From Clostridia bacterium (lineage in GTDB: Bacteria; Bacillota; Clostridia; Oscillospirales; CAG-272): a DNA stretch of 41,246 nt. The stretch is from NCBI GenBank assembly GCA_017502975.1, contig JAFVTV010000050.1, forward strand, positions 1-41,246, given 5' to 3'. This document shows, one piece after another, positions 7,955-19,894 of the stretch. The notes under the pieces were generated by a model, which was not told where the DNA came from, searched no databases, and worked only from the letters and a program-made list of their open reading frames with translations. Made by a program: the position numbers and the translations under genes. Position 1 is the stretch's first letter. The number at the start of each line of letters is the position of its first letter.

Positions 7955-7977
7955 AAAAAGCGTAAAAAACGGTTTCT

Positions 7978-8060
7978 GTGACTGACGGAATTGTGGGTCA
8001 CCACGGGGGAGCAGAAATAATAGCGAAATTTGCAATGCGGGTTTCGCGCCGACCGTCTGG
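7978..8060 (+). ncRNA. ZTP (pfl) riboswitch
   Basis: The leader carries the conserved blocks of the pfl motif: GTGACTGACGG, then CACCACGGGGGAGC, and CCGACCGTCTGGGC at the 3' side. GACGG pairs with CCGTC to close the first stem. This class binds ZTP/ZMP (AICAR monophosphate), which accumulates when 10-formyl-tetrahydrofolate is short. It turns on purine and folate genes. Its placement before purE, with glyA and both formyl-transfer steps downstream, agrees well. Confidence 0.93.
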
Positions 8061-8101
8061 GCACACTCGTTTCCAAACCAAGGAATCAGTGTGTCTTTTT
8101 T
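8061..8101 (+). terminator. Riboswitch expression-platform terminator
   Basis: GCACACT (8061-8067) pairs with AGTGTGT (8088-8094). An inner TTCC/GGAA stem and a T-run at 8096-8101 follow the same hairpin. The left arm begins within the conserved GGGC of the aptamer, so ligand binding and termination should exclude each other. Confidence 0.9.
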
Positions 8102-8130: not shown

Positions 8131-8640
8131 ATGAAGAAAAAAGTTGGAATTATCATGGGTAGTGACAGCGATCTGCCCATTATGCGCAGGGCAGCTGATA
8201 CGCTGGCTGACTTTGGCGTGCCGTTTGAGGTGCACGTGATGTCGGCACACAGAACGCCCGACGCCGCTGCTCGTTTTGCGCGCAATGCACGCGAGAATGG
8301 ATTTGGTGCCATTATTGCTGCGGCGGGGATGGCCGCGCACCTTGGCGGTGTGATGGCGGCATATACCACGCTGCCTGTGATCGGCGTGCCCTGTAAGTCC
8401 ACCAATCTTGACGGTATGGATGCACTGCTTTCCACCGTGCAGATGCCCTCGGGCATTCCCGTTGCAACGGTTGCGATCAACGGCGCCGTAAACGCAGCAC
8501 TTCTTTGCTGTGAGATGTTTGCCATTACCGATGAGGAACTTGCCGCAAAACTTGCCGCAAAGCGTGCGGCTGATGAGGCAAAGGTGCTTGAAAAAAATGC
8601 CGCGGTTGAAGCAGAATTTGCTGCCTTCGCAAATCTTTAA
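8131..8640 (+). CDS. purE: N5-carboxyaminoimidazole ribonucleotide mutase
   Basis: A 169-residue PurE. The motifs MGSDSDLPIM (9-18), SAHRTP (38-43), AAAGMAAHLGG and MPSGIPVATV are all in place. The enzyme rearranges N5-CAIR to CAIR in de novo purine synthesis, using the carboxylate made by PurK. No purK is present in the operon, so it must lie elsewhere unless this PurE carboxylates AIR directly; the motifs look like the ordinary class I form. A charged helical tail (about 150-169) extends slightly beyond the core. GGAGGTG is 8 bases before the ATG. It is the first gene after the ZTP riboswitch and lies 12 bases upstream of the purF-like gene. Confidence 0.95.
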   Translation: MKKKVGIIMGSDSDLPIMRRAADTLADFGVPFEVHVMSAHRTPDAAARFARNARENGFGAIIAAAGMAAHLGGVMAAYTTLPVIGVPCKSTNLDGMDALLSTVQMPSGIPVATVAINGAVNAALLCCEMFAITDEELAAKLAAKRAADEAKVLEKNAAVEAEFAAFANL

Positions 8641-8652
8641 GGGGTGTAGTGT

Positions 8653-10077
8653 ATGGGCGGCTTTTTTGGCGTTGCGGCGCGACATGACGCGCTGACAGAT
8701 ATCTTTTTTGGTACAGACTATCATTCCCACCTCGGCACGGCACGTGCCGGCGTGGCGGTGTATGACCGCGAGGTTGGGCTTCAGCGTGAAATACACAATA
8801 TCAAAAACACTCCCTTTCGCACCAAGTTTGAGCACGTATTTGACGATATGAAGGGCAGTTCTGCCATCGGCTGCATCAGCGATGGCGAGCCGCAGCCCCT
8901 GCTTATTCGCTCTCATCACGGAACTTACGCTATTTGTAACATCGGTGCGATAACGAATGCAGATGAGTTGATCGAAAAATATTTCAAAACCAGCGGCGGG
9001 CATTTTGATGCGATGACGGGCGGCGCAGTCAATCCTACTGAGTTGATTGCCGCGCTGATCGACCAAAAGACAGATCTTGTCGAGGGTATTCAGTTTGCGC
9101 AAAGCGAGATCAAGGGCTCAATCACGGTGCTGATCTTGCGTGAAGGCGGCAGCATCATCGCCGCGCGTGACAAATTCGGACGCTTGCCGATGATTCTTGG
9201 CAAGGGAGATGACGCATATTGCGTGACCTTTGAGAGCTTTGCTGCGGAAAAGCTTGGCTATACGGTCTTCAAGGAGCTCGGTCCCGGTGAGATCGTGGAG
9301 ATCACACACGAGGGCACAAGGCAGCTTGTCGCCCCGGGCAAGGAAATGCGTATTTGCTCGTTTTTGTGGTCTTATTATGGTTACTCCCCCTCGGCGTATG
9401 AGGGCGTGAACGTTGAGGTCATGCGTTACCGCAACGGCGCGATCATGGCACAGGGCGAGAAGGGTGCGGGCGATTTGCCGCCGCTTGATTTTGTGGCAGG
9501 CATGCCTGATTCCGGCACCCCCCACGCCATCGGCTATGCAGGCGAGAGTGGGATACCCTTTGCGCGCCCTTTCCTCAAATATACGCCTACGTGGTCGCGC
9601 AGCTTTACACCCAATAAGCAGGTGGAGCGTAACCGCGTGGCAAAAATGAAGCAGGTGCCGGTAAAGGAATTGATAGACGGTAAGGATCTGATGTTTGTTG
9701 ATGATTCTATCGTGCGCGGCACGCAGCTCAAAAGCACCGTGGATTTTCTCTTTAACAGTGGCGCGAAGTCGGTGCACATGCGCTCGGCTTGCCCGCCGAT
9801 CATGTACCGTTGCAAGTATCTTAATTTCACGAGCGCCAAAAACGATATGGAGCTGCTCGCACGCCGTGTGATCCTCGAGCTTGAGGGTGAGGAGGGCGAA
9901 AAGCACATTGAGGAATACAGTGACGGCACCACCGAGCGCGGCCGCGCACTGCGCCGCGCGATCTCCGAGAAGATGCACTTTAATTCACTCGAATTTCAAT
10001 CACTTGAGGGTGTGATAAAGGCGATCGGTCTTGAACCGTGTAAACTCTGCACATATTGCTGGAACGGAAAGGAATAA
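8653..10077 (+). CDS. purF: Amidophosphoribosyltransferase-like protein lacking the glutaminase cysteine
   Basis: A 474-residue PurF relative. The C-terminal phosphoribosyltransferase half is intact, with the PRPP loop VDDSIVRG at 349-356. Cysteines at 235, 387 and 463/466/469 match the [4Fe-4S] ligand positions of Bacillus-type PurF. The N-terminal half is degenerate: it begins MGGFFGV instead of MCG. The usual HRGQ segment reads HLGTARAG and the LVHNGN segment reads [13 protein letters not shown] stop lies two codons before the ATG in frame, so no hidden cysteine start exists. Classical PurF makes phosphoribosylamine from PRPP and glutamine. This protein probably cannot hydrolyse glutamine in the normal way; it might use ammonia or be a regulatory paralogue. 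It is the only PurF-like gene in the operon. Confidence 0.88.
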
Positions 10078-10081
10078 AATT

Positions 10082-11131
10082 ATGCACAATCAATCGAAAT
10101 CTGAAAGCTACGCAGCCGCAGGTGTTGACATTACTGCGGGCTACAAAGCAGTTGAACTGATGAAAAAGCACGTTGCGCGCACCAAAAACGAGGGCTGCCT
10201 TGATGACGTTGGCGGCTTTGGCGGTTGCTTTGGTCTTAACATTGCCGGTATGGAGGAGCCTGTGCTCGTATCCGGCACTGACGGATGCGGCACAAAGGTC
10301 AAGCTTGCCATTTTAATGGACAAGCATGATACCATTGGTATTGATGCCGTTGCCATGTGCGTCAATGACATTATTTGTGTAGGCGCAAAGCCGCTGTTTT
10401 TCCTTGACTATATTGCTTGCGGCAAAAACGTGCCCGAGAAGATCGCCTCGATCGTTGGCGGTGTTGCAGAGGGCTGTGTGCAGTCGGGTGCCGCGCTGAT
10501 CGGCGGTGAAACTGCCGAGCATCCGGGCCTGATGCCTGTTGAGGATTATGACCTTGCCGGCTTTGCTGTTGGCGTGGTTGATAAGAAGAAGATCATTGAT
10601 AACACGAAAATGAGCGAGGGCGACGTGGTGATCGCGCTGGCATCCAGCGGTATTCACTCCAATGGCTTTTCTCTCATTCGCAAGGTGTTTGATATTGACA
10701 ATAACCCCGCTTCGCTGTATGTGGCGAATGAGGCGCTTGGCGGTAAGTCGGTTGCCGAAACGCTGCTTACCCCCACCAGAATCTACGTGAAATCGGTGCT
10801 GGCACTTCTCGAAAAGGTAGAGGTGAAGGGCATTTCTCACATTACGGGCGGCGGCTTTTATGAGAACATTCCGCGCAGCATCCCCGACGGGCTCTGTGCC
10901 AAGATCGATAAGAGTGCGGTAAAGGTGCTTCCCATTTTCGATCTCATTGCCAAAACCGGTAACATTCCCGAGCGCGATATGTATAACACCTATAATATGG
11001 GTGTTGGTATGAGCATTGTGGTGCCTGCCGATCAAAAGGACGAAGCGCTTGAGATCCTTCGCGCTCACGGTGAGGATGCATATCTCATCGGCGAGATCGT
11101 AAAGGGTGAGGATAAGGTGATCCTTCAATGA
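10082..11131 (+). CDS. purM: Phosphoribosylformylglycinamidine cyclo-ligase (AIR synthetase)
   Basis: A 349-residue PurM. Recognisable segments are [14 protein letters not shown] at the start, [14 protein letters not shown] in the ATP-binding region, [13 protein letters not shown] and [12 protein letters not shown]. The enzyme closes the imidazole ring: FGAM plus ATP gives AIR. The ATG at 10082 is preferred over an in-frame ATG at 10031, which lies inside purF, because AAAGGAA precedes it and the homologous sequence starts there. It follows purF by 4 bases and its stop overlaps the purN start by 4 bases (ATGA), so the two are translationally coupled. Confidence 0.96.
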
Positions 11132-11739
11132 GTAAAACGAAAATAGCAGTTCTCGTTTCGGGGGGCGGCACCAATTTGCAGGCATTGATCGATGCACAGC
11201 AAGGCGGCATCCTTAAAAACGGCGAGATCGTGCTTGTTATTTCAAATAACAGTGGTGCGTATGCGCTTACCCGCGCTGCGAATGCGGGCATTGCAACTTG
11301 CGTGATCTCCAAAAAGGAGTTTGGCTGTGCCGCGGCGTTTGAGGAGAAATTGCTTGCTACCTTAAAGGAGCAGGGAATTGAACTGATCGTGCTGGCAGGC
11401 TTTATGGTGATCCTCAGTCAGCGCGTGACCGATGCATATCCCGAGCGTATCATCAACGTACACCCCTCGCTCATCCCCTCCTTTTGCGGAGAGGGCTTTT
11501 ACGGGCTGCGTGTGCATGAGGCGGCACTTGGCTACGGCGTGAAGGTAACCGGTGCAACTGTCCACTTTGTAAACGAAATTCCCGATGGCGGCAGGATCAT
11601 TATGCAAAAGGCTGTCGAGATCCGCGAGGGTGATACACCCGAGGTGCTCCAGCGCCGCGTTATGGAAGAGGCGGAGTGGAAAATATTGCCCCTTGCAGTT
11701 GAGCAGGTAGCGGCAGAAATAAAAGAGAAGAAAGAGTGA
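11128..11739 (+). CDS. purN: Phosphoribosylglycinamide formyltransferase
   Basis: A 203-residue folate-dependent GAR transformylase. The N-terminal [12 protein letters not shown] loop binds the substrate phosphate. The active-site trio is visible: Asn110 and His112 in [11 protein letters not shown], and Asp153 in NEIPDGGRI. It transfers the formyl group of 10-formyl-tetrahydrofolate to GAR, the first of the two folate-dependent steps in this operon. The ATG overlaps the end of purM (ATGA at 11128-11131). The product of glyA, further down the operon, supplies the one-carbon unit. Confidence 0.95.
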
Positions 11740-11743
11740 AATT

Positions 11744-12454
11744 ATGGCATTGTTTGATTTGAAAAAGCTTCTGCGTGAAAATACATACCCCGGGCGTGGT
11801 ATTGTGATCGGCAGGTCAGCCGACGGCAAAAACGCCATGATCGCTTACTTTATCATGGGTCGCAGTGAAAACAGCCGCAATCGCGTGTTTGAGCGCTTTG
11901 AGGGTGGCATGCGTACCAAGGCATTTGATGAGAGCAAGCTTTCCGACCCGAGCCTCATTATTTATAACCCTTACCTTGCGCTTGCAGGCACGGACATCAT
12001 CACCAACGGTGATCAGACCAATACCATTTACGATCATATGGTAAAGGGCGAGAGCTTTGAGGATGCTTTGATGACGCGTGAGTTTGAGCCGGACTGCCCC
12101 AACTATACCCCCCGTATTTCGGGCGTTTGCTATTACGGTGACAAGGATTTTACCTATTCGCTCTCTATTCTCAAAAGCGCAAACGGTAATCCTGCGGTAT
12201 GTAACCGCTATTTCTACCGCTTTGCACCGCGCGCAGGCATCGGCCATTTTATCCACACCTATAAGTGTGACGGCAACCCGATCCCTTCCTTTTACGGCGA
12301 GCCTGAGGAGGTCGCACTCCCCAATACCGCTGAGGAGCTTTCTGAGCTTTTGTGGAAGAACCTGAACCCTGATAACAAGGTCTCGCTTTTTGTACGCTGC
12401 GTACCGCTTGACGGCAGCGCTCCCACCGAGATCATTACCAATAAAAATCAATAA
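11744..12454 (+). CDS. purO: IMP cyclohydrolase, PurO-like
   Basis: A 236-residue protein of the IMP cyclohydrolase family first known from archaeal PurO and also found in Clostridia. Landmarks are YPGRGIVIGRSADGK near the start, FIMGRSENSRNRVF, NGDQTNTIYDHM and the central TPRISGVCYYGD. It closes FAICAR to IMP, the last step of the pathway, which most bacteria perform with the N-terminal domain of bifunctional PurH. Here the stand-alone transformylase follows directly downstream, so the two halves of the PurH function are separate genes from different families. It starts 4 bases after purN. Confidence 0.9.
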   Translation: MALFDLKKLLRENTYPGRGIVIGRSADGKNAMIAYFIMGRSENSRNRVFERFEGGMRTKAFDESKLSDPSLIIYNPYLALAGTDIITNGDQTNTIYDHMVKGESFEDALMTREFEPDCPNYTPRISGVCYYGDKDFTYSLSILKSANGNPAVCNRYFYRFAPRAGIGHFIHTYKCDGNPIPSFYGEPEEVALPNTAEELSELLWKNLNPDNKVSLFVRCVPLDGSAPTEIITNKNQ

Positions 12455-12469
12455 GCGAGGCTGTTACAT

Positions 12470-13654
12470 ATGAAAGATTTTGAACTGAAATACGGCTGTA
12501 ATCCCAACCAAAAGCCTGCCAAGATCTACATGCATGACGGAAGCGAGCTTCCCATCAAGATCCTTTCCGGCAGACCCGGCTACATCAACTTTCTGGATGC
12601 TTTCAACTCTTGGCAACTGGTAAAGGAATTAAAGGAGGCTTTGGGGCTTCCCGCCGTCACGTCCTTTAAGCACGTTAGCCCCACCTCGGCGGCTGTTGGT
12701 GTAAAACTCTCCGACAAACTGAAAAAGGCATGCTTTGTAGAGGATATCGAGGGGCTTGACGATTCGCTCCTTGCCTGCGCTTATGCGCGTGCACGCGGTA
12801 CTGACCGTATGTGCTCGTTTGGCGACTGGGTGGCACTTTCTGATGTGTGTGACGTGACCACGGCGCAAATGCTCAAGCGTGAGGTTTCTGACGGTATCAT
12901 CGCTCCCGGCTATGAGCCTGAGGCGCTTGAGATCCTCAAGACCAAAAAGAAGGGCAATTACAATATCGTAGAGATCGATCCCAATTATACTCCCGATCCT
13001 ATTGAGAGAAAACAGGTGTTTGGCATCACCTTTGAGCAGGGCAGAAACAATTTTGAGATCAACGCAGCACTGCTGCAAAACATTGTAACCGAAAACAAGG
13101 ATATGCCCGAGAGCGCGGTGCGCGATCTGATCGTTGCCCTCATCACTCTCAAATATACGCAGTCCAATTCGGTTTGCTATGCCGTTGACGGACAGGCGAT
13201 CGGTGTTGGTGCAGGTCAGCAATCCCGCGTGCACTGTACACGTCTTGCAGGCGGCAAGGCAGATACCTGGTTCCTGCGTCAGCACGACAAGGTACTCGCC
13301 CTCCCCTTTAAGGAAACACTCGGTCGCCCCGATCGCGACAACGTCATTGACGGTTATATAAACCAAAACGAGGAGGACGTTTGCGCTGAGGGGAATTGGC
13401 AAAAGTACTTTACCGCACAGCCCGCTCCCTTTACCCGTGAGGAGCAAAGAGCGTACCTGGATACGATCAGCGGTGTTGCCTGCGGCTCGGATGCCTTCTT
13501 CCCGTTTAGCGACAACGTAGAGCGCTGCAAAAAGAGCGGTGTTAGCTACATCGCACAGCCCGGTGGCTCGATCCGCGATGATCTTGTGATCGAGTGCTGC
13601 AACAAATACGGCATGGCAATGGCATTTACCGGTATGAGACTCTTCCACCATTAA
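12470..13654 (+). CDS. AICAR transformylase, stand-alone
   Basis: A 394-residue protein equivalent to the C-terminal domain of PurH without the cyclohydrolase domain. It begins with ELKYGCNPNQKPA. The catalytic Lys67-His68 pair lies in SFKHVSPTSAA, and the end has YIAQPGGSIRDD and TGMRLFHH. It formylates AICAR with 10-formyl-tetrahydrofolate to give FAICAR, which the upstream PurO-like enzyme cyclises. Its substrate, ZMP, is the ligand of the riboswitch at the head of the operon, which gives a direct feedback link. It lies 15 bases after purO and has GCGAGG before the ATG. Confidence 0.93.
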   Translation: MKDFELKYGCNPNQKPAKIYMHDGSELPIKILSGRPGYINFLDAFNSWQLVKELKEALGLPAVTSFKHVSPTSAAVGVKLSDKLKKACFVEDIEGLDDSLLACAYARARGTDRMCSFGDWVALSDVCDVTTAQMLKREVSDGIIAPGYEPEALEILKTKKKGNYNIVEIDPNYTPDPIERKQVFGITFEQGRNNFEINAALLQNIVTENKDMPESAVRDLIVALITLKYTQSNSVCYAVDGQAIGVGAGQQSRVHCTRLAGGKADTWFLRQHDKVLALPFKETLGRPDRDNVIDGYINQNEEDVCAEGNWQKYFTAQPAPFTREEQRAYLDTISGVACGSDAFFPFSDNVERCKKSGVSYIAQPGGSIRDDLVIECCNKYGMAMAFTGMRLFHH

Positions 13655-13672: not shown

Positions 13673-14911
13673 ATGAACTTTTTCGACGAACTTGCAAATT
13701 ATGATAAAGAGGTATTTGATGGGTGCAACCTTGAGCTGACTCGTCAGCGCCACAATATTGAGCTGATCGCCTCGGAAAATATTGTTTCCAAGGCGGTTCT
13801 TATGGCGGCAGGCACGGTGCTGACCAACAAGTATGCCGAGGGCTATCCCGGCAAGCGTTACTACGGTGGCTGCCACTGTGTAGATATCGTGGAGGATATC
13901 GCACGCGAGCGCGCAAAGAAGCTCTTCGGCGCCGAGCACGCAAACGTACAGCCCCACAGCGGCGCAAATGCCAATCTTGCCGTATTCTTTGCACTCTGCA
14001 ATCCCGGTGATACCGTTATGGGTCTGAACCTCGCACACGGCGGCCACCTTTCCCACGGCTCACCTGTTAACATTTCGGGCAAGTACTTCAATGTCGTGCC
14101 TTACAGCGTAAACGACGATACCGAGATGCTCGATTACGAGGATATTCGTCGCGTGGCGCTTGCGTGCAAGCCGAAGCTGATCGTTGCAGGTGCCAGCGCT
14201 TACTCGCGCACCATTGATTTTGAGGCGATCGCAAAGATCGCAAAAGAGGTTGGCGCTTACTACATGGTAGATATGGCGCACATCGCAGGTCTTGTTGCGG
14301 CAGGTCTTCACCCCTCTCCCGTACCCTATGCCGACGTTGTTACCACTACCACGCATAAGACTCTGCGCGGCCCGCGCGGCGGCATGATCCTTTGCCGCGA
14401 GGAGCTTGCAAAGCAGATCGACAAGGCAGTGTTCCCGGGTACGCAGGGCGGCCCCCTCATGCACATCATTGCCGCTAAGGCAGTTGCGCTTGGCGAGGCA
14501 ATGACTCCCGAGTTTAAGGAATATCAGAAAAACGTGAAGGAAAACGCTAAGGTGCTTTGCGAGTGCCTTAAGGATGCGGGATTCCGCATTGTTTCGGGTG
14601 ACACCGACAATCACCTCATGCTCATCGACCTTCGCCCCTTCGGTATTACGGGTAAGGAAATGGAAAGACGCCTTGATGAGGTACATATCACCGTTAACAA
14701 GAATGCGATCCCCAACGACCCCGAAAAGCCTTTTGTTACCAGCGGTATCCGTGTGGGTACGCCCGCCGTTACCAGCCGTGGCTTTGGCAAAGAGGAAATG
14801 CGCCTGATCGCTACCTGGATGCGCGACGTTGCCGCTGATTTTGAGGGCAACCGCGAGCGCATTGCAGGTGAGGTTATGGCTCTTTGCGAAAAATTCCCGA
14901 TCTACAACTGA
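13673..14911 (+). CDS. glyA: Serine hydroxymethyltransferase
   Basis: A 412-residue PLP enzyme of normal GlyA length. Landmarks: [57 protein letters not shown] and the PLP lysine Lys229 in [14 protein letters not shown]. It converts serine and tetrahydrofolate to glycine and 5,10-methylene-tetrahydrofolate. Both products serve the pathway: glycine is a substrate of PurD next door, and the one-carbon unit supplies PurN and the AICAR transformylase. Its inclusion in the operon explains why a ZTP riboswitch, a sensor of formyl-folate shortage, controls the set. AGAAAGGA lies about 10 bases before the ATG. Confidence 0.97.
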
Positions 14912-14929: not shown

Positions 14930-16201
14930 ATGAAAATAATGGTCGTTGGTGGTGGCGGCAGAGAGCATGCCATCATTCGCTCGCTTCTCAAAAACCCTAA
15001 GGTTGAAACAATTTATGCAGTACCCGGTAACGGCGGCATGAAGGATGATGCCGTACTCGTGCCGATCGCTGCAACCGAAACCGATAAGATCGTTGCGTTT
15101 GCCGTGGAAAATAAGATCGATTATGCCGTTGTTGCACCTGACGATCCGTTGGTGCTGGGCACTGTCGATGCGCTTGCGGCTGTGGGCATTCCTTCCTTTG
15201 GCCCCAATAAGGCTGCGGCGATCATTGAGGGAAGTAAGGTCTTTTCCAAGAACCTGATGAAAAAGTACAACATTCCCACTGCGGGCTATGAGGTGTTTGA
15301 CGATCCGAAAAAGGCACTTGCATACCTTGAAACGGCAGAGATCCCGATCGTGGTGAAGGCAGACGGTCTTGCACTTGGCAAGGGCGTCATTATTGCCACC
15401 ACACGCGAGGAGGCTATGGATGCCGTGCACTCCATCATGGAGGATAAGGTGTTTGGCAAGAGTGGCAATCAGATCGTGGTAGAGGAGTTCCTCACCGGTC
15501 CTGAGGTGTCTGTTCTCGCCTTTACCGATGGTAAGACTATGGTTCCCATGGTATCCTCTATGGACCATAAGCGTGCCCACGATAATGATGAGGGCCTCAA
15601 TACGGGTGGCATGGGTACCATTGCCCCCAACCCCTACTATACCAAGGAAATTGCTGACCTTTGCATGGAAACCATCTTCCTGCCCACTATGGCGGCAATG
15701 AATGCCGAGGGCAGAACCTTTAAGGGGTGCCTGTACTTTGGCTTGATGCTCACCCCCAAGGGCCCGAAGGTGATCGAGTATAACTGCCGCTTTGGCGATC
15801 CCGAAACGCAGGTGGTGCTCCCCCTTCTTGAAAGCGATCTTCTCACCATTATGCAGGCGGTGACCGAGGAGCGCCTTGACGAGGTAGAGGTGAAATTCAG
15901 CAACGGTGCTGCTTGTTGCGTTGTTATGGCATCCGAGGGCTATCCCGGTAAGTACGAGAAGGGCTATCCGATCACGATGAGCGACGAGGCACGCCCCCAC
16001 GTATTCGTTGCGGGCGCATCTCTTAAGGATGGAACTGTCGTTACCAATGGCGGACGCGTGCTTGGCGTTACCGCGGTAGAGGATACGCTTGCCGGCGCGA
16101 TCAAAACAGCATACGCGCGTGTAAATGAGGTTCATTTTGACAATGCATTTTATCGCCACGACATCGGCAAACGCGCCATGGCGGCACTGACAAAGGAGTA
16201 A
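14930..16201 (+). CDS. purD: Phosphoribosylamine-glycine ligase (GAR synthetase)
   Basis: A 423-residue ATP-grasp enzyme of standard PurD length. It starts with MKIMVVGGGGREHAI. The ATP-grasp core shows VVKADGLALGKGV, the segment NTGGMGTIAPNPYY, and EYNCRFGDPETQVVLP. It joins phosphoribosylamine to glycine with ATP to make GAR, directly downstream of the PurF step and using glycine that GlyA produces. AAAAAGGAG precedes the ATG. It starts 18 bases after glyA and ends 3 bases before purL. Confidence 0.97.
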   Translation: MKIMVVGGGGREHAIIRSLLKNPKVETIYAVPGNGGMKDDAVLVPIAATETDKIVAFAVENKIDYAVVAPDDPLVLGTVDALAAVGIPSFGPNKAAAIIEGSKVFSKNLMKKYNIPTAGYEVFDDPKKALAYLETAEIPIVVKADGLALGKGVIIATTREEAMDAVHSIMEDKVFGKSGNQIVVEEFLTGPEVSVLAFTDGKTMVPMVSSMDHKRAHDNDEGLNTGGMGTIAPNPYYTKEIADLCMETIFLPTMAAMNAEGRTFKGCLYFGLMLTPKGPKVIEYNCRFGDPETQVVLPLLESDLLTIMQAVTEERLDEVEVKFSNGAACCVVMASEGYPGKYEKGYPITMSDEARPHVFVAGASLKDGTVVTNGGRVLGVTAVEDTLAGAIKTAYARVNEVHFDNAFYRHDIGKRAMAALTKE

Positions 16202-16204
16202 CAA

Positions 16205-19200
16205 ATGGTATTTAGAGTATATGTAGAGAAAAAGCCCGAACTGGCGCATGAGGCAAGCGGCCTTTTCTCGGAATTGAAAAATCTTGTTGGCATCTCGGCA
16301 CTGACCTCAGTGCGCGTGATCAATCGCTATGATGTAGAGAATACCGAAGCTGCACTTTTTGAAAAGGCAGTACGCACCATTTTCTCCGAACCCCAGCTGG
16401 ATATTGTCAGTGACGAGCTTGATGCTAAGGGCGGCATCGTCTTTGCGGTTGAGCCCCTGCCCGGTCAGTTTGATCAGCGTGCCGATTCCGCTGCGCAGTG
16501 CATTCAGCTGCAAAGCGGCGGTGACCGCCCCACCGTGCGCTCCGCAAAGGTCTACGTGCTTGGTGGTGAGCTTGCCGAAAAGGATGTTGCCGAGATCAAA
16601 AAGTTCGTGATCAACGCGGTAGAAAGCCGCGAGGCAAGCCTTGAAAAGCCCGAAACGCTTGCTGTGGAATACGCAATTCCTTCCTCGGTAAAAACCGTTG
16701 ATGGCTTTATTTCGCTTGATGAAAAGGGTCTTGCCGATCTGCTTGACAGCCTTGGTCTTGCGATGGATCTTGACGATCTTAAATTCCTGCAGGCGTATTT
16801 CCGTGACGAGGAAAAGCGCGATCCCACCATTACCGAGATCCGCGTGGTCGATACCTATTGGTCTGACCACTGCCGTCACACCACCTTCTCTACGCACATT
16901 GATGACGTAAAGATCGATGATCCTGCAGTTGCTGCCGCTTACGAGCGTTATCTCGCCGCACGCGTTGAGGTCTATGGAGAGGAGAAGGCTGCAAAGCGCC
17001 CCCAAACCCTCATGGATATCGCAACGATTGCAGGTAAAGTGCTCAAAAAGCGTGGGCTTCTCCCCGAGCTTGATGAGAGTGAGGAGATCAATGCTTGCTC
17101 CATTCATGTGACCGCAAAGGTAAACGGAGAGCCCGAGGATTGGCTCTTGATGTTTAAAAACGAAACGCACAACCATCCCACCGAGATCGAGCCCTTTGGC
17201 GGTGCGGCTACCTGTATCGGTGGCTGTATCCGAGATCCGCTCTCCGGTCGCGCATACGTGCATCAAGCAATGCGTGTGACGGGTGGTGGCGATCCGCGCC
17301 GTGCCCTTGCCGATACCATCCCCGGTAAGCTTCCCCAGCGTAAGCTTGCGCAAACAGCGGCGGCGGGCTACTCCTCCTACGGTAACCAGATCGGTCTTGC
17401 AACGGGTCACGTTGCCGAGGTCTATCATGACGGCTATATGGCAAAGCGCCTTGAGTGCGGTGCTGTGGTTGCCGCGGCTCCTGCCTCTAACGTGCGCCGC
17501 GAGCGCCCTGCCGCAGGTGACGTTGTCATCCTGCTTGGCGGTCGAACCGGCCGTGACGGTATTGGCGGTGCTACCGGCTCCTCTAAAAGCCACAATATGA
17601 AGTCCCTGACGACCATGGCTTCCGAGGTGCAGAAGGGTAACGCACCCGAGGAGAGAAAGATCCAGCGTTTGTTCCGCAATGCTGAGGTCACGCGCCTCAT
17701 TAAGCGCTGCAATGACTTTGGCGCAGGCGGTGTTTCGGTTGCCATTGGCGAGCTTGCCGACGGCCTTGCGATCGATCTTGATGCTGTTCGTAAAAAGTAC
17801 GACGGCCTTGACGGTACCGAGCTTGCGATCTCCGAGTCGCAGGAGCGTATGGCTGTTGTGGTTGAAGCAAAGGATGCGGATCAGTTTATTGCCTATGCTG
17901 AGAGTGAGAATCTTGAGGCATACCGCGTGGCTGTTGTAACCGAGGAGGCGCGTATGGTTATGACCTGGAAGGGGCAGACCATTGCCGATCTTTCCCGTGC
18001 GTTCCTTAACACCAACGGTGCAGATAAGCATACGGAAGTTCATGTAACCGAAAAGGATCTTGCCGCGCTCAGTGCGCCGCTTTACGGCTCGCTTCGCGAG
18101 ATGGCAGGCGACCTTAAAACCGCCAGCCGTCAGGGTCTTGTAGAGCGTTTTGACGGTTCGATCGGTGCGGGATCTGTTACCATGCCCTTCGGCGGCAAAA
18201 CGCAAAAGACACCCGCGCAATCCATGGCAGCCCTGCTGCCCGTTCTGCCCGGTGAAGCGACCGAGCAGGCAAGCGTCATGTCCTGGGCACTGGATCCCGA
18301 TCACATGAGCATTGACACCTACACAGGCGCACGTGCAGCCGTGTATCACTCCATGGCAAAGCTTGTTGCCGCAGGTGCTGATTATAAGCAGGCGTATCTC
18401 ACGCTTCAAGAGTTCTTTGAAAAGCTTCGTACCGACGCTACGCGTTGGGGCAAGCCCTTCTCGGCACTTCTTGGTGCAATGGATGCACAGCTTGAGCTTG
18501 GTGCCGCTGCAATCGGCGGTAAGGACTCGATGTCGGGTACCTTCCTTGATATGGATGTACCCCCCACACTCATTTCCTTTGCAATCGCGCCCATTGCGGC
18601 AGGGGATGTGATCACGCCCGAATTTAAGGCAGCAGGTCACCCCGTTTACCTCTTCGCACCCGACGAGGATACGGCAGAGTCGCAAAAGGCTGCTTGGGAG
18701 GCATTCTATGCGCTCCATAAGGCAGGCAAGGTCAAGGCTGCATGGGCTGTGGAAAACGGCATTGGCGAGGCTGTAATGAAGATGTCCTTCGGTAACAAGA
18801 TCGGCTTCAAGTCCGCCCAGTGCGATGATTGGCATTCTGCCGGTATGTACGGCTTTATCGTGGCTGAGCTCTCGGAGGAGGTAGAGAACATCTACGCCTT
18901 TAAGCTTGGCGAAACCACCGCTGAGGAGGTCGTTGACCTTGCAGGCGATAAGGCTACCATTGATGAGCTTCTTGCCATTAACGAGGCTGTGCTTGAGGGT
19001 GTATACCCCACCAAGGCAGAGCCCAAGGAAAAAACCGCTCCCATCTTTACTTATACTAAGGGCTTTGACGTAGCGCCTGCAGTGAAGTGTGCGCGCCCCA
19101 AGGTTCTTATCCCTGTATTCCCGGGTACAAACTGTGAGTATGATTCTGCCCGTGCCATGATGAATGCCGGTGCTGACGCAGAGATCGTGGTCATTCGCAA

Positions 19201-19894
19201 TCTTACCGCTGATGACGTGGCAAGAAGCGTGGAAACGATCTCGAAAAAGCTTGCCGAAAGCCAGATGGTATTTATCCCCGGTGGCTTCTCCGGTGGCGAT
19301 GAGCCCGATGGCTCCGCTAAGTTTATTACCGCATTCTTCCGCAATCCGGCAGTAAAGGAGCAGGTCACGCGCCTGCTTGACGAGCGCGACGGCTTGATGC
19401 TTGGTATCTGTAACGGCTTCCAGGCACTCATTAAGCTTGGTCTTGTGCCTTACGGTAAGATCATCGATACCGATGCAAGCTGCCCCACGCTTACATACAA
19501 TATCATCGGACGTCACCAATCTAAGCTGGTGCGTACGCGCGTGGCAACCAATAAATCTCCTTGGCTTGCAGCAACCAATGTGGGTGATATCTATACTGTG
19601 CCGATCTCTCATGGCGAGGGCCGCTTCCTTGCCGGCGATGAGCTTGTAAAGGAGCTTGCCGCAAACGGTCAGATCGCAACGCAGTATGTAGATCTTGCAG
19701 GCAATCCCACCATGGACAGTGCCTTCAACCCCAACGGCTCTGTTGCCGCAATTGAGGGTATCATTTCTCCTGACGGTCGCGTGCTCGGTAAAATGGGTCA
19801 CAGCGAGCGTATTGGTAAAGATCTTTACCGCAACGTCCTTGGCGAGTATGACATGCAGCTCTTTGCTTCTGCTGTCAAATATTTCAAAGGCTAA
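16205..19894 (+). CDS. purL: FGAM synthase, PurL and PurQ fused in one chain
   Basis: A 1229-residue FGAM synthase that carries the synthetase and the glutaminase in one polypeptide, as in the long PurL clade, rather than separate PurS, PurQ and PurL. A small N-terminal PurS-like part is followed by tandem synthetase halves, with landmarks SDHCRHTTFST, FKNETHNHPTEIEPFGGAAT and GAGSVTMPFGGKTQKT. The class I glutamine amidotransferase begins near residue 955 (VLIPVFPGTNCEYDS). Its nucleophile is Cys1069 in LGICNGFQAL and its catalytic histidine His1136 in ISHGEGRF. It converts FGAR, glutamine and ATP to FGAM. Thus this enzyme keeps an intact glutaminase while the PurF-like protein in the same operon does not. 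Last gene of the purine operon. Confidence 0.96.
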   Translation: MVFRVYVEKKPELAHEASGLFSELKNLVGISALTSVRVINRYDVENTEAALFEKAVRTIFSEPQLDIVSDELDAKGGIVFAVEPLPGQFDQRADSAAQCIQLQSGGDRPTVRSAKVYVLGGELAEKDVAEIKKFVINAVESREASLEKPETLAVEYAIPSSVKTVDGFISLDEKGLADLLDSLGLAMDLDDLKFLQAYFRDEEKRDPTITEIRVVDTYWSDHCRHTTFSTHIDDVKIDDPAVAAAYERYLAARVEVYGEEKAAKRPQTLMDIATIAGKVLKKRGLLPELDESEEINACSIHVTAKVNGEPEDWLLMFKNETHNHPTEIEPFGGAATCIGGCIRDPLSGRAYVHQAMRVTGGGDPRRALADTIPGKLPQRKLAQTAAAGYSSYGNQIGLATGHVAEVYHDGYMAKRLECGAVVAAAPASNVRRERPAAGDVVILLGGRTGRDGIGGATGSSKSHNMKSLTTMASEVQKGNAPEERKIQRLFRNAEVTRLIKRCNDFGAGGVSVAIGELADGLAIDLDAVRKKYDGLDGTELAISESQERMAVVVEAKDADQFIAYAESENLEAYRVAVVTEEARMVMTWKGQTIADLSRAFLNTNGADKHTEVHVTEKDLAALSAPLYGSLREMAGDLKTASRQGLVERFDGSIGAGSVTMPFGGKTQKTPAQSMAALLPVLPGEATEQASVMSWALDPDHMSIDTYTGARAAVYHSMAKLVAAGADYKQAYLTLQEFFEKLRTDATRWGKPFSALLGAMDAQLELGAAAIGGKDSMSGTFLDMDVPPTLISFAIAPIAAGDVITPEFKAAGHPVYLFAPDEDTAESQKAAWEAFYALHKAGKVKAAWAVENGIGEAVMKMSFGNKIGFKSAQCDDWHSAGMYGFIVAELSEEVENIYAFKLGETTAEEVVDLAGDKATIDELLAINEAVLEGVYPTKAEPKEKTAPIFTYTKGFDVAPAVKCARPKVLIPVFPGTNCEYDSARAMMNAGADAEIVVIRNLTADDVARSVETISKKLAESQMVFIPGGFSGGDEPDGSAKFITAFFRNPAVKEQVTRLLDERDGLMLGICNGFQALIKLGLVPYGKIIDTDASCPTLTYNIIGRHQSKLVRTRVATNKSPWLAATNVGDIYTVPISHGEGRFLAGDELVKELAANGQIATQYVDLAGNPTMDSAFNPNGSVAAIEGIISPDGRVLGKMGHSERIGKDLYRNVLGEYDMQLFASAVKYFKG

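Follow-up and report, generated by a model that had tools for sequence, protein, structure and literature searches.

A PurF-type protein with a dead glutaminase domain, proposed to make phosphoribosylamine from free ammonia in Clostridia

PurF is the textbook glutamine-dependent entry to purine synthesis. Escherichia coli PurF without Cys1 is reported to make no use of glutamine and to retain the use of ammonia; the same text records, in Methanocorpusculum labreanum, a PurF duplicate (Mlab_0150) with serine at the active-site cysteine (PMC3261824). The synthase half can thus work alone. CPS1 is reported to keep a glutaminase domain that is dead and to use free ammonia (PMC4655335). For the single-domain bacterial NAD synthetase, a further report holds ammonia to be the physiological substrate, within a family that is partly glutamine-using (PMC3376133).

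Here we examine a PurF homologue encoded in a 41,246-nucleotide stretch of clostridial DNA (the window), and name PurF-type genes with a dead glutaminase domain purFd. From comparative sequence evidence, we consider it likely that purFd encodes the working first purine enzyme of its lineage, making phosphoribosylamine from PRPP and ammonia and not from glutamine. Cytosolic ammonia would reach the PRPP site directly, perhaps by way of the old glutaminase pocket, which would be left open without its glutamine-loop lid, and carbamoyl phosphate would likewise be formed from free ammonia by a CarB without CarA, in the manner of CPS1. The family is apparently a large one without earlier characterization; no report of it or of its CarB link was found in the open-licence PMC literature.

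The purine operon and the altered glutaminase domain

The operon of the window runs ZTP riboswitch–purE–purFd–purM–purN–purO–AICAR formyltransferase–glyA–purD–purL (Table 1), and a profile search bore out the initial annotation that purFd is its only PurF-type gene. Bifunctional PurH is replaced by a PurO-like IMP cyclohydrolase and a separate AICAR formyltransferase (11744–13654, + strand). ZTP riboswitches were detected in the window and at five of nine other, mostly operonic, purFd loci; an Rfam scan of stand-alone purFd loci gave no matches in 11 and one 6S RNA in 11 others.

Table 1. Features of the purFd operon in the window
Feature	Position	Strand	Basis or remark
ZMP/ZTP riboswitch aptamer, upstream of operon	7968..8069	+	RF01750, 57.8 bits
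purE	8131..8640	+	
In-frame TAG, two codons 5' of ATG	8647..8649	+	Codons before the ORF: GTG TAG TGT ATG
PurF homologue with dead glutaminase domain (purFd), 474 aa	8653..10077	+	Proposed ammonia-dependent phosphoribosylamine synthase
Gly codon at the catalytic Cys1 site	8656..8658	+	Alignment with family and canonical rows
HLGT replacing HRGQ, residues 26–29	8728..8739	+	Alignment with family
GCISD, glutamine loop R-Y-x-T deleted	8869..8883	+	Alignment with family and canonical rows
NIG replacing H-N-G (oxyanion-hole Asn lost)	8938..8946	+	Alignment with family
Fe-S ligand C235	9355..9357	+	Kept in 157/157
Remodelled flexible PRPP loop, 10 residues	9577..9606	+	Lys and Arg kept, Trp invariant
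PRPP loop DDSIVRGT, intact, residues 350–357	9700..9723	+	
Fe-S ligand C387	9811..9813	+	Kept in 157/157
Fe-S ligands C466 and C469 (CTYC)	10048..10059	+	Each kept in 157/157
purM	10082..11131	+	
purN	11128..11739	+	
PurO-like IMP cyclohydrolase	11744..12454	+	PF07826, 199.7 bits
Stand-alone AICAR formyltransferase	12470..13654	+	NF005492
glyA	13673..14911	+	
purD, phosphoribosylamine consumer	14930..16201	+	
purL, glutaminase motifs in place (GICNGFQ, SHGEGRF)	16205..19894	+	

The 8653–10077 frame has an unbroken translation that opens with MGGFFG. As the initial annotation stated, the ATG is preceded at a distance of two codons by an in-frame TAG; together with the intervening TGT, which is not a start codon, this rules out a hidden cysteine start. 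The described replacement of the catalytic cysteine by glycine recurs across the family, the HRGQ and HNGN segments are altered as claimed (to HLGT and, at residues 96–99, NIGA) and the PRPP loop is indeed intact. To these we add a further loss absent from the earlier list, the R-Y-x-T glutamine loop. We take the HNGN asparagine to have an oxyanion-hole role and the Arg-Tyr loop to bind glutamine. Where five cysteines had been placed at Fe-S positions, four align (C235, C387, C466 and C469), presumably the cluster ligands of the B. subtilis type. Against TIGR01134 the protein scores 161.9 bits, below the curated cut-off of 350, and it aligns with B. subtilis PurF (1ao0) over residues 3–402 (E = 3.4e-42), plus a weak C-terminal piece. 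The second PurF that the initial annotation proposed looking for was sought with TIGR01134 in the 83.9%-complete assembly from which the window comes; beyond purFd itself, matched in two pieces, the search gave only a short match of 35.2 bits in a 626-aa frame on another contig (C52).

To place these changes in a family, we gathered at least 581 confirmed purFd matches from named genome contigs, of which 80 were kept, and took other relatives from the genus and further genomes. The 158 distinct proteins became 157, the window's included, once one shorter than 440 aa was dropped, and were aligned with 21 canonical PurF sequences. The Cys1 site of the 157 reads Gly in 153 and Ser in three, is cut off in one and is Cys in none; it is Cys in all 21 canonical rows. 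The HRGQ arginine is leucine and the HNGN asparagine is valine, isoleucine or threonine in every member, and the R-Y-x-T loop is a gap in all 157, its Arg and Tyr being present in 21 of 21 canonical sequences. Equally constant are the four cysteines, three residues of the flexible loop (Lys, Trp and Arg) and every residue of the PRPP loop DDSIVRGT except its Ile, which is kept in 154. A sequencing error or pseudogene is ruled out by changes common to so many distinct members.

Because 79 members were found with the patterns MGG[FY]FGV[AT] and FFGTDYHS, the first of which contains the glycine, their Gly is partly due to the search; the 78 from profile or family searches carry Gly in 75, Ser in three and Cys in none, with the same losses. 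In 500 random pairs, identity averages 63% within purFd, 58% among canonical PurF and about 30% between the two, and the tree sets 62 purFd rows apart from 20 canonical ones by a branch with SH-aLRT 100.

The N-terminal domain is about as conserved in the dead form as in the live one (mean majority 0.705 in purFd against 0.723 in canonical PurF), which suggests that it is probably under selection. Such conservation would also fit a docking surface for a separate glutaminase that supplies purFd with ammonia, as CarA does on CarB, and most amidotransferases have a committed glutaminase. We regard this arrangement as unlikely on the evidence of gene neighbourhoods, although a partner encoded elsewhere in the genome may exist. 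No glutaminase gene was seen beside purFd: the window operon holds only the fused domain of PurL, whose GICNGFQ and SHGEGRF we take to be glutaminase motifs. Among 36 stand-alone purFd loci, the neighbour families recurring in at least four are an ABC-type transporter (six), an elongation-factor-like protein (five), CarB (four) and an RNA polymerase subunit (four), all but CarB named by eye and so presumptive, and no glutaminase was recognized among these four. Few stand-alone loci share any neighbour, so the purine context is missing there.

A purine setting is the rule in the 80 named loci, with purM within 400 nt 3' in 75, purE within 1.3 kb 5' in 68 and canonical purF in none. Canonical and dead-glutaminase purF are adjacent, in either order, at three other loci (L189, L201 and L203). 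The setting bears on a further alternative, in which the phosphoribosyl acceptor of purFd would be a different amine, or a different nitrogen donor would be used, bound in a remodelled N-terminal domain. Remodelling to other invariant residues (H24, S25, L27 and W314) is indeed seen in the flexible loop and in the old pocket, but purFd occupies the place of canonical purF in the operon, next to purM and together with purD, and PurD needs phosphoribosylamine. We judge this alternative very improbable.

Distribution and genomes without canonical PurF

Within its genus purFd occurs in 20 of 21 genomes (membership checked), one of the 21 having a canonical PurF over the cut-off. The wider survey covered 243 genomes of the class, drawn at a completeness of at least 92% with the window's own (83.9%) among them, and probably consisting mostly of metagenome assemblies. 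A purFd profile matched 71, which less three canonical cross-hits (G045, G066 and G221; about 210 bits) leaves purFd in 68 of 243; TIGR01134 is over its cut-off in 188–189. By best E-value, 21 of the 68, from 14 families, have no canonical PurF, a figure in which G064 is doubtful, its second and weaker TIGR01134 match (6.7e-44 to 1e-32) being maybe a canonical fragment, and in which the absence from G186 may be an assembly gap, because its near relatives have canonical PurF. The other 47 hold canonical PurF as well (G154, counted here on three matches with a best of 4.9e-80, has only a partial one), so purFd need not be the main PurF in those genomes.

The enzymes downstream of PurF accompany purFd throughout. 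PurD, PurL and PurM are present in all 21 purFd-only genomes; PurL and PurM were found in 25 of 25 genomes checked, these 21 included, with PurL over its cut-off in 24. PurD occurs in 211 of the 243 class genomes, including all 68 with purFd, and none of the 211 lacks every PurF homologue: by subtraction, 186 give a strong canonical hit, purFd occurs without one in 22 (the 21 and G154), and three show partial canonical-type matches only (G067, G090 and G192). At 1e-32, 26 genomes give no PurF match, and all of them fall outside the PurD-bearing set; six of the genomes counted as without PurF and 12 of those without PurD were derived from gaps in genome numbering. Because purFd appears to be the only PurF in 21 genomes with PurD, PurL and PurM, and because no PurD-bearing genome is without a PurF homologue, the purFd product very probably makes phosphoribosylamine.

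These counts also bear on the view of purFd as a regulatory or moonlighting paralogue, with phosphoribosylamine arising from a canonical PurF missed by the assemblies or from ribose 5-phosphate and ammonia. That two thirds or so of its genomes (47 of 68) hold canonical PurF speaks for this view, as do the three genomes (G100, G181 and G184) in which canonical purF adjoins purFd at the same locus and the PurF-independent phosphoribosylamine formation known in Salmonella; the same source states, however, that purine requirements had not been satisfied by any route independent of PurF (PMC3485032). Missed genes fit poorly with the numbers: 20 of 67 purFd genomes of at least 92% completeness (the window's own omitted) lack canonical PurF, where a rough expectation at 3–4% of genes missing is two or three, and G226, which belongs to the 21, consists of a single contig and has purFd inside its purine operon. 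The PRPP-site residues, moreover, are invariant. The paralogue reading strikes us as a little less plausible still than a docking glutaminase. The initial annotation had left free ammonia, a partner glutaminase and a paralogue with another role side by side; the genomes favour the first, and an unrelated role leaves the 21 purFd-only genomes unexplained.

On the PurF tree, many forks of which are weak, there are at least 13 changes between genomes with only purFd and those with both forms. Together with its apparent standing as sole PurF in 21 genomes, this suggests that purFd is apparently able to replace canonical PurF and that such replacement has happened more than once. Its range extends past the class, with 18 of 299 genomes in a phylum sample, 13 of them outside the class. 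In a plasmid collection 84 records gave a match and four were purFd, one from Peptoclostridium and three from Bacteroidota, all matching the window protein in the Gly, in the lack of the glutamine loop and in the PRPP loop; the Bacteroidota records carry genes such as eno or rplU and thus may be pieces of chromosome. Peptoclostridium acidaminophilum and Bacteroides finegoldii are among the named species with a homologue. At these four loci (L231, L232, L233 and L234) purFd adjoins pepT, with gcvT also present in the Bacteroidota; pepT was absent beside purFd from the other loci scanned.

Linkage to carB without carA and the nitrogen source

The case for free ammonia as the nitrogen source draws on the genes of pyrimidine synthesis. 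purFd lies with carB at 26 loci (22 distinct places, since L152 and L258 duplicate L082, L257 duplicates L149 and L261 duplicates L146), and carA is found at none, the upstream side of carB being in view in 17 of the 22 and carB running off the end of the stretch in the other five (L056, L059, L067, L146 and L182). Canonical purF lies with carB at four loci (three distinct), all four with carA. At L182, L249 and L250 carB is about 2–3 kb from purFd on the opposite strand. Seven stand-alone purFd genes in six genomes sit 15–92 nt 3' of carB on the same strand, with no carA beside carB; one genome, G451, has two separate carB–purFd pairs (L240 and L241). Operonic purFd often follows all or part of the series pyrC-carB-pyrK-pyrD-pyrF-pyrE-pyrB-pyrI-purE. 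The window's own genome has pyrC-carB-pyrK-pyrD-pyrF-pyrE mid-contig on C31 (L254, 4491–11965, − strand), where carB comes immediately 3' of pyrC and carA is missing; CarB is present and CarA was not detected in this assembly, 83.9% complete.

We surveyed CarA and CarB across whole genomes in 14 cases, chosen partly for carB linkage. The number of CarB over CarA is 1/0 in G000, G147, G233 and G061, 0/0 in G226, 2/1 in G182, G216, G094, G206, G154, G273, G351 and G428, and 3/1 in G451. The five genomes without CarA are exactly those among the 14 that are known to carry purFd and no canonical match, a result that again speaks against a docking glutaminase of the CarA kind. Where CarA is present, in nine genomes, its neighbour is a CarB other than the purFd-linked one; the five of these nine that were searched for canonical PurF (G182, G216, G094, G206 and G154) all have it, G154 as a partial match. 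The single contig of G182 has canonical purF, carA and carB together and a second carB beside purFd. One CarA could serve both CarB proteins in genomes with two. On the CarB tree the CarA-less proteins fall into two separate groups, so there was probably more than one event of CarA loss or of CarB recruitment.

Because purFd travels with a CarB that lacks CarA, its probable nitrogen source, judged from gene content, is free ammonia: two enzymes, each without a dedicated glutaminase and travelling together, are best explained in this way, and carbamoyl phosphate would then come from free ammonia too. The ammonia forms are found paired, as carB-purFd or pyrC-carB-pyrK-pyrD-pyrF-pyrB-purE-purFd-purM, and a purF-carA-carB arrangement can unite the glutamine forms. 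We lean, by a modest degree, towards the broader proposal that many anaerobes have switched both nucleotide pathways together from glutamine to free ammonia, the old glutaminase pocket maybe serving as the ammonium entry site. Many titles of the named-contig records with purFd refer to samples from rumen, caecum, colon or rectum, which are ammonia-rich places; in genomes with both PurF forms, our guess is that purFd may act as an isozyme for ammonia-rich conditions.

Implications and comparison with known systems

If this interpretation is right, free ammonia would feed purine synthesis, and perhaps pyrimidine synthesis, in many gut and rumen bacteria, metabolic models and predictions of auxotrophy would change, low-scoring 'amidophosphoribosyltransferase' annotations would be explained and the cells should be insensitive to glutamine analogues at the PurF step.

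The purFd product resembles PurF (TIGR01134; B. subtilis 1ao0, E. coli 1ecb) in its full-length homology, PRPP loop and operon position, and the B. subtilis type in its four Fe-S cysteines; it is unlike PurF in having lost Cys1, the glutamine loop, the HNGN asparagine and the HRGQ arginine. Mlab_0150, likened to purFd here by its description, is described as a relatively recent duplicate of its own species' PurF and is not taken as PurF (PMC3261824). The single-domain NAD synthetase has no glutaminase domain, a state said to be ancestral, whereas purFd keeps a dead one. CPS1 is also a glutamine amidotransferase that retains a dead glutaminase domain; it is a different enzyme of another amidotransferase class, so the likeness is one of analogy only, in which purFd would offer a testable bacterial parallel to CPS1.
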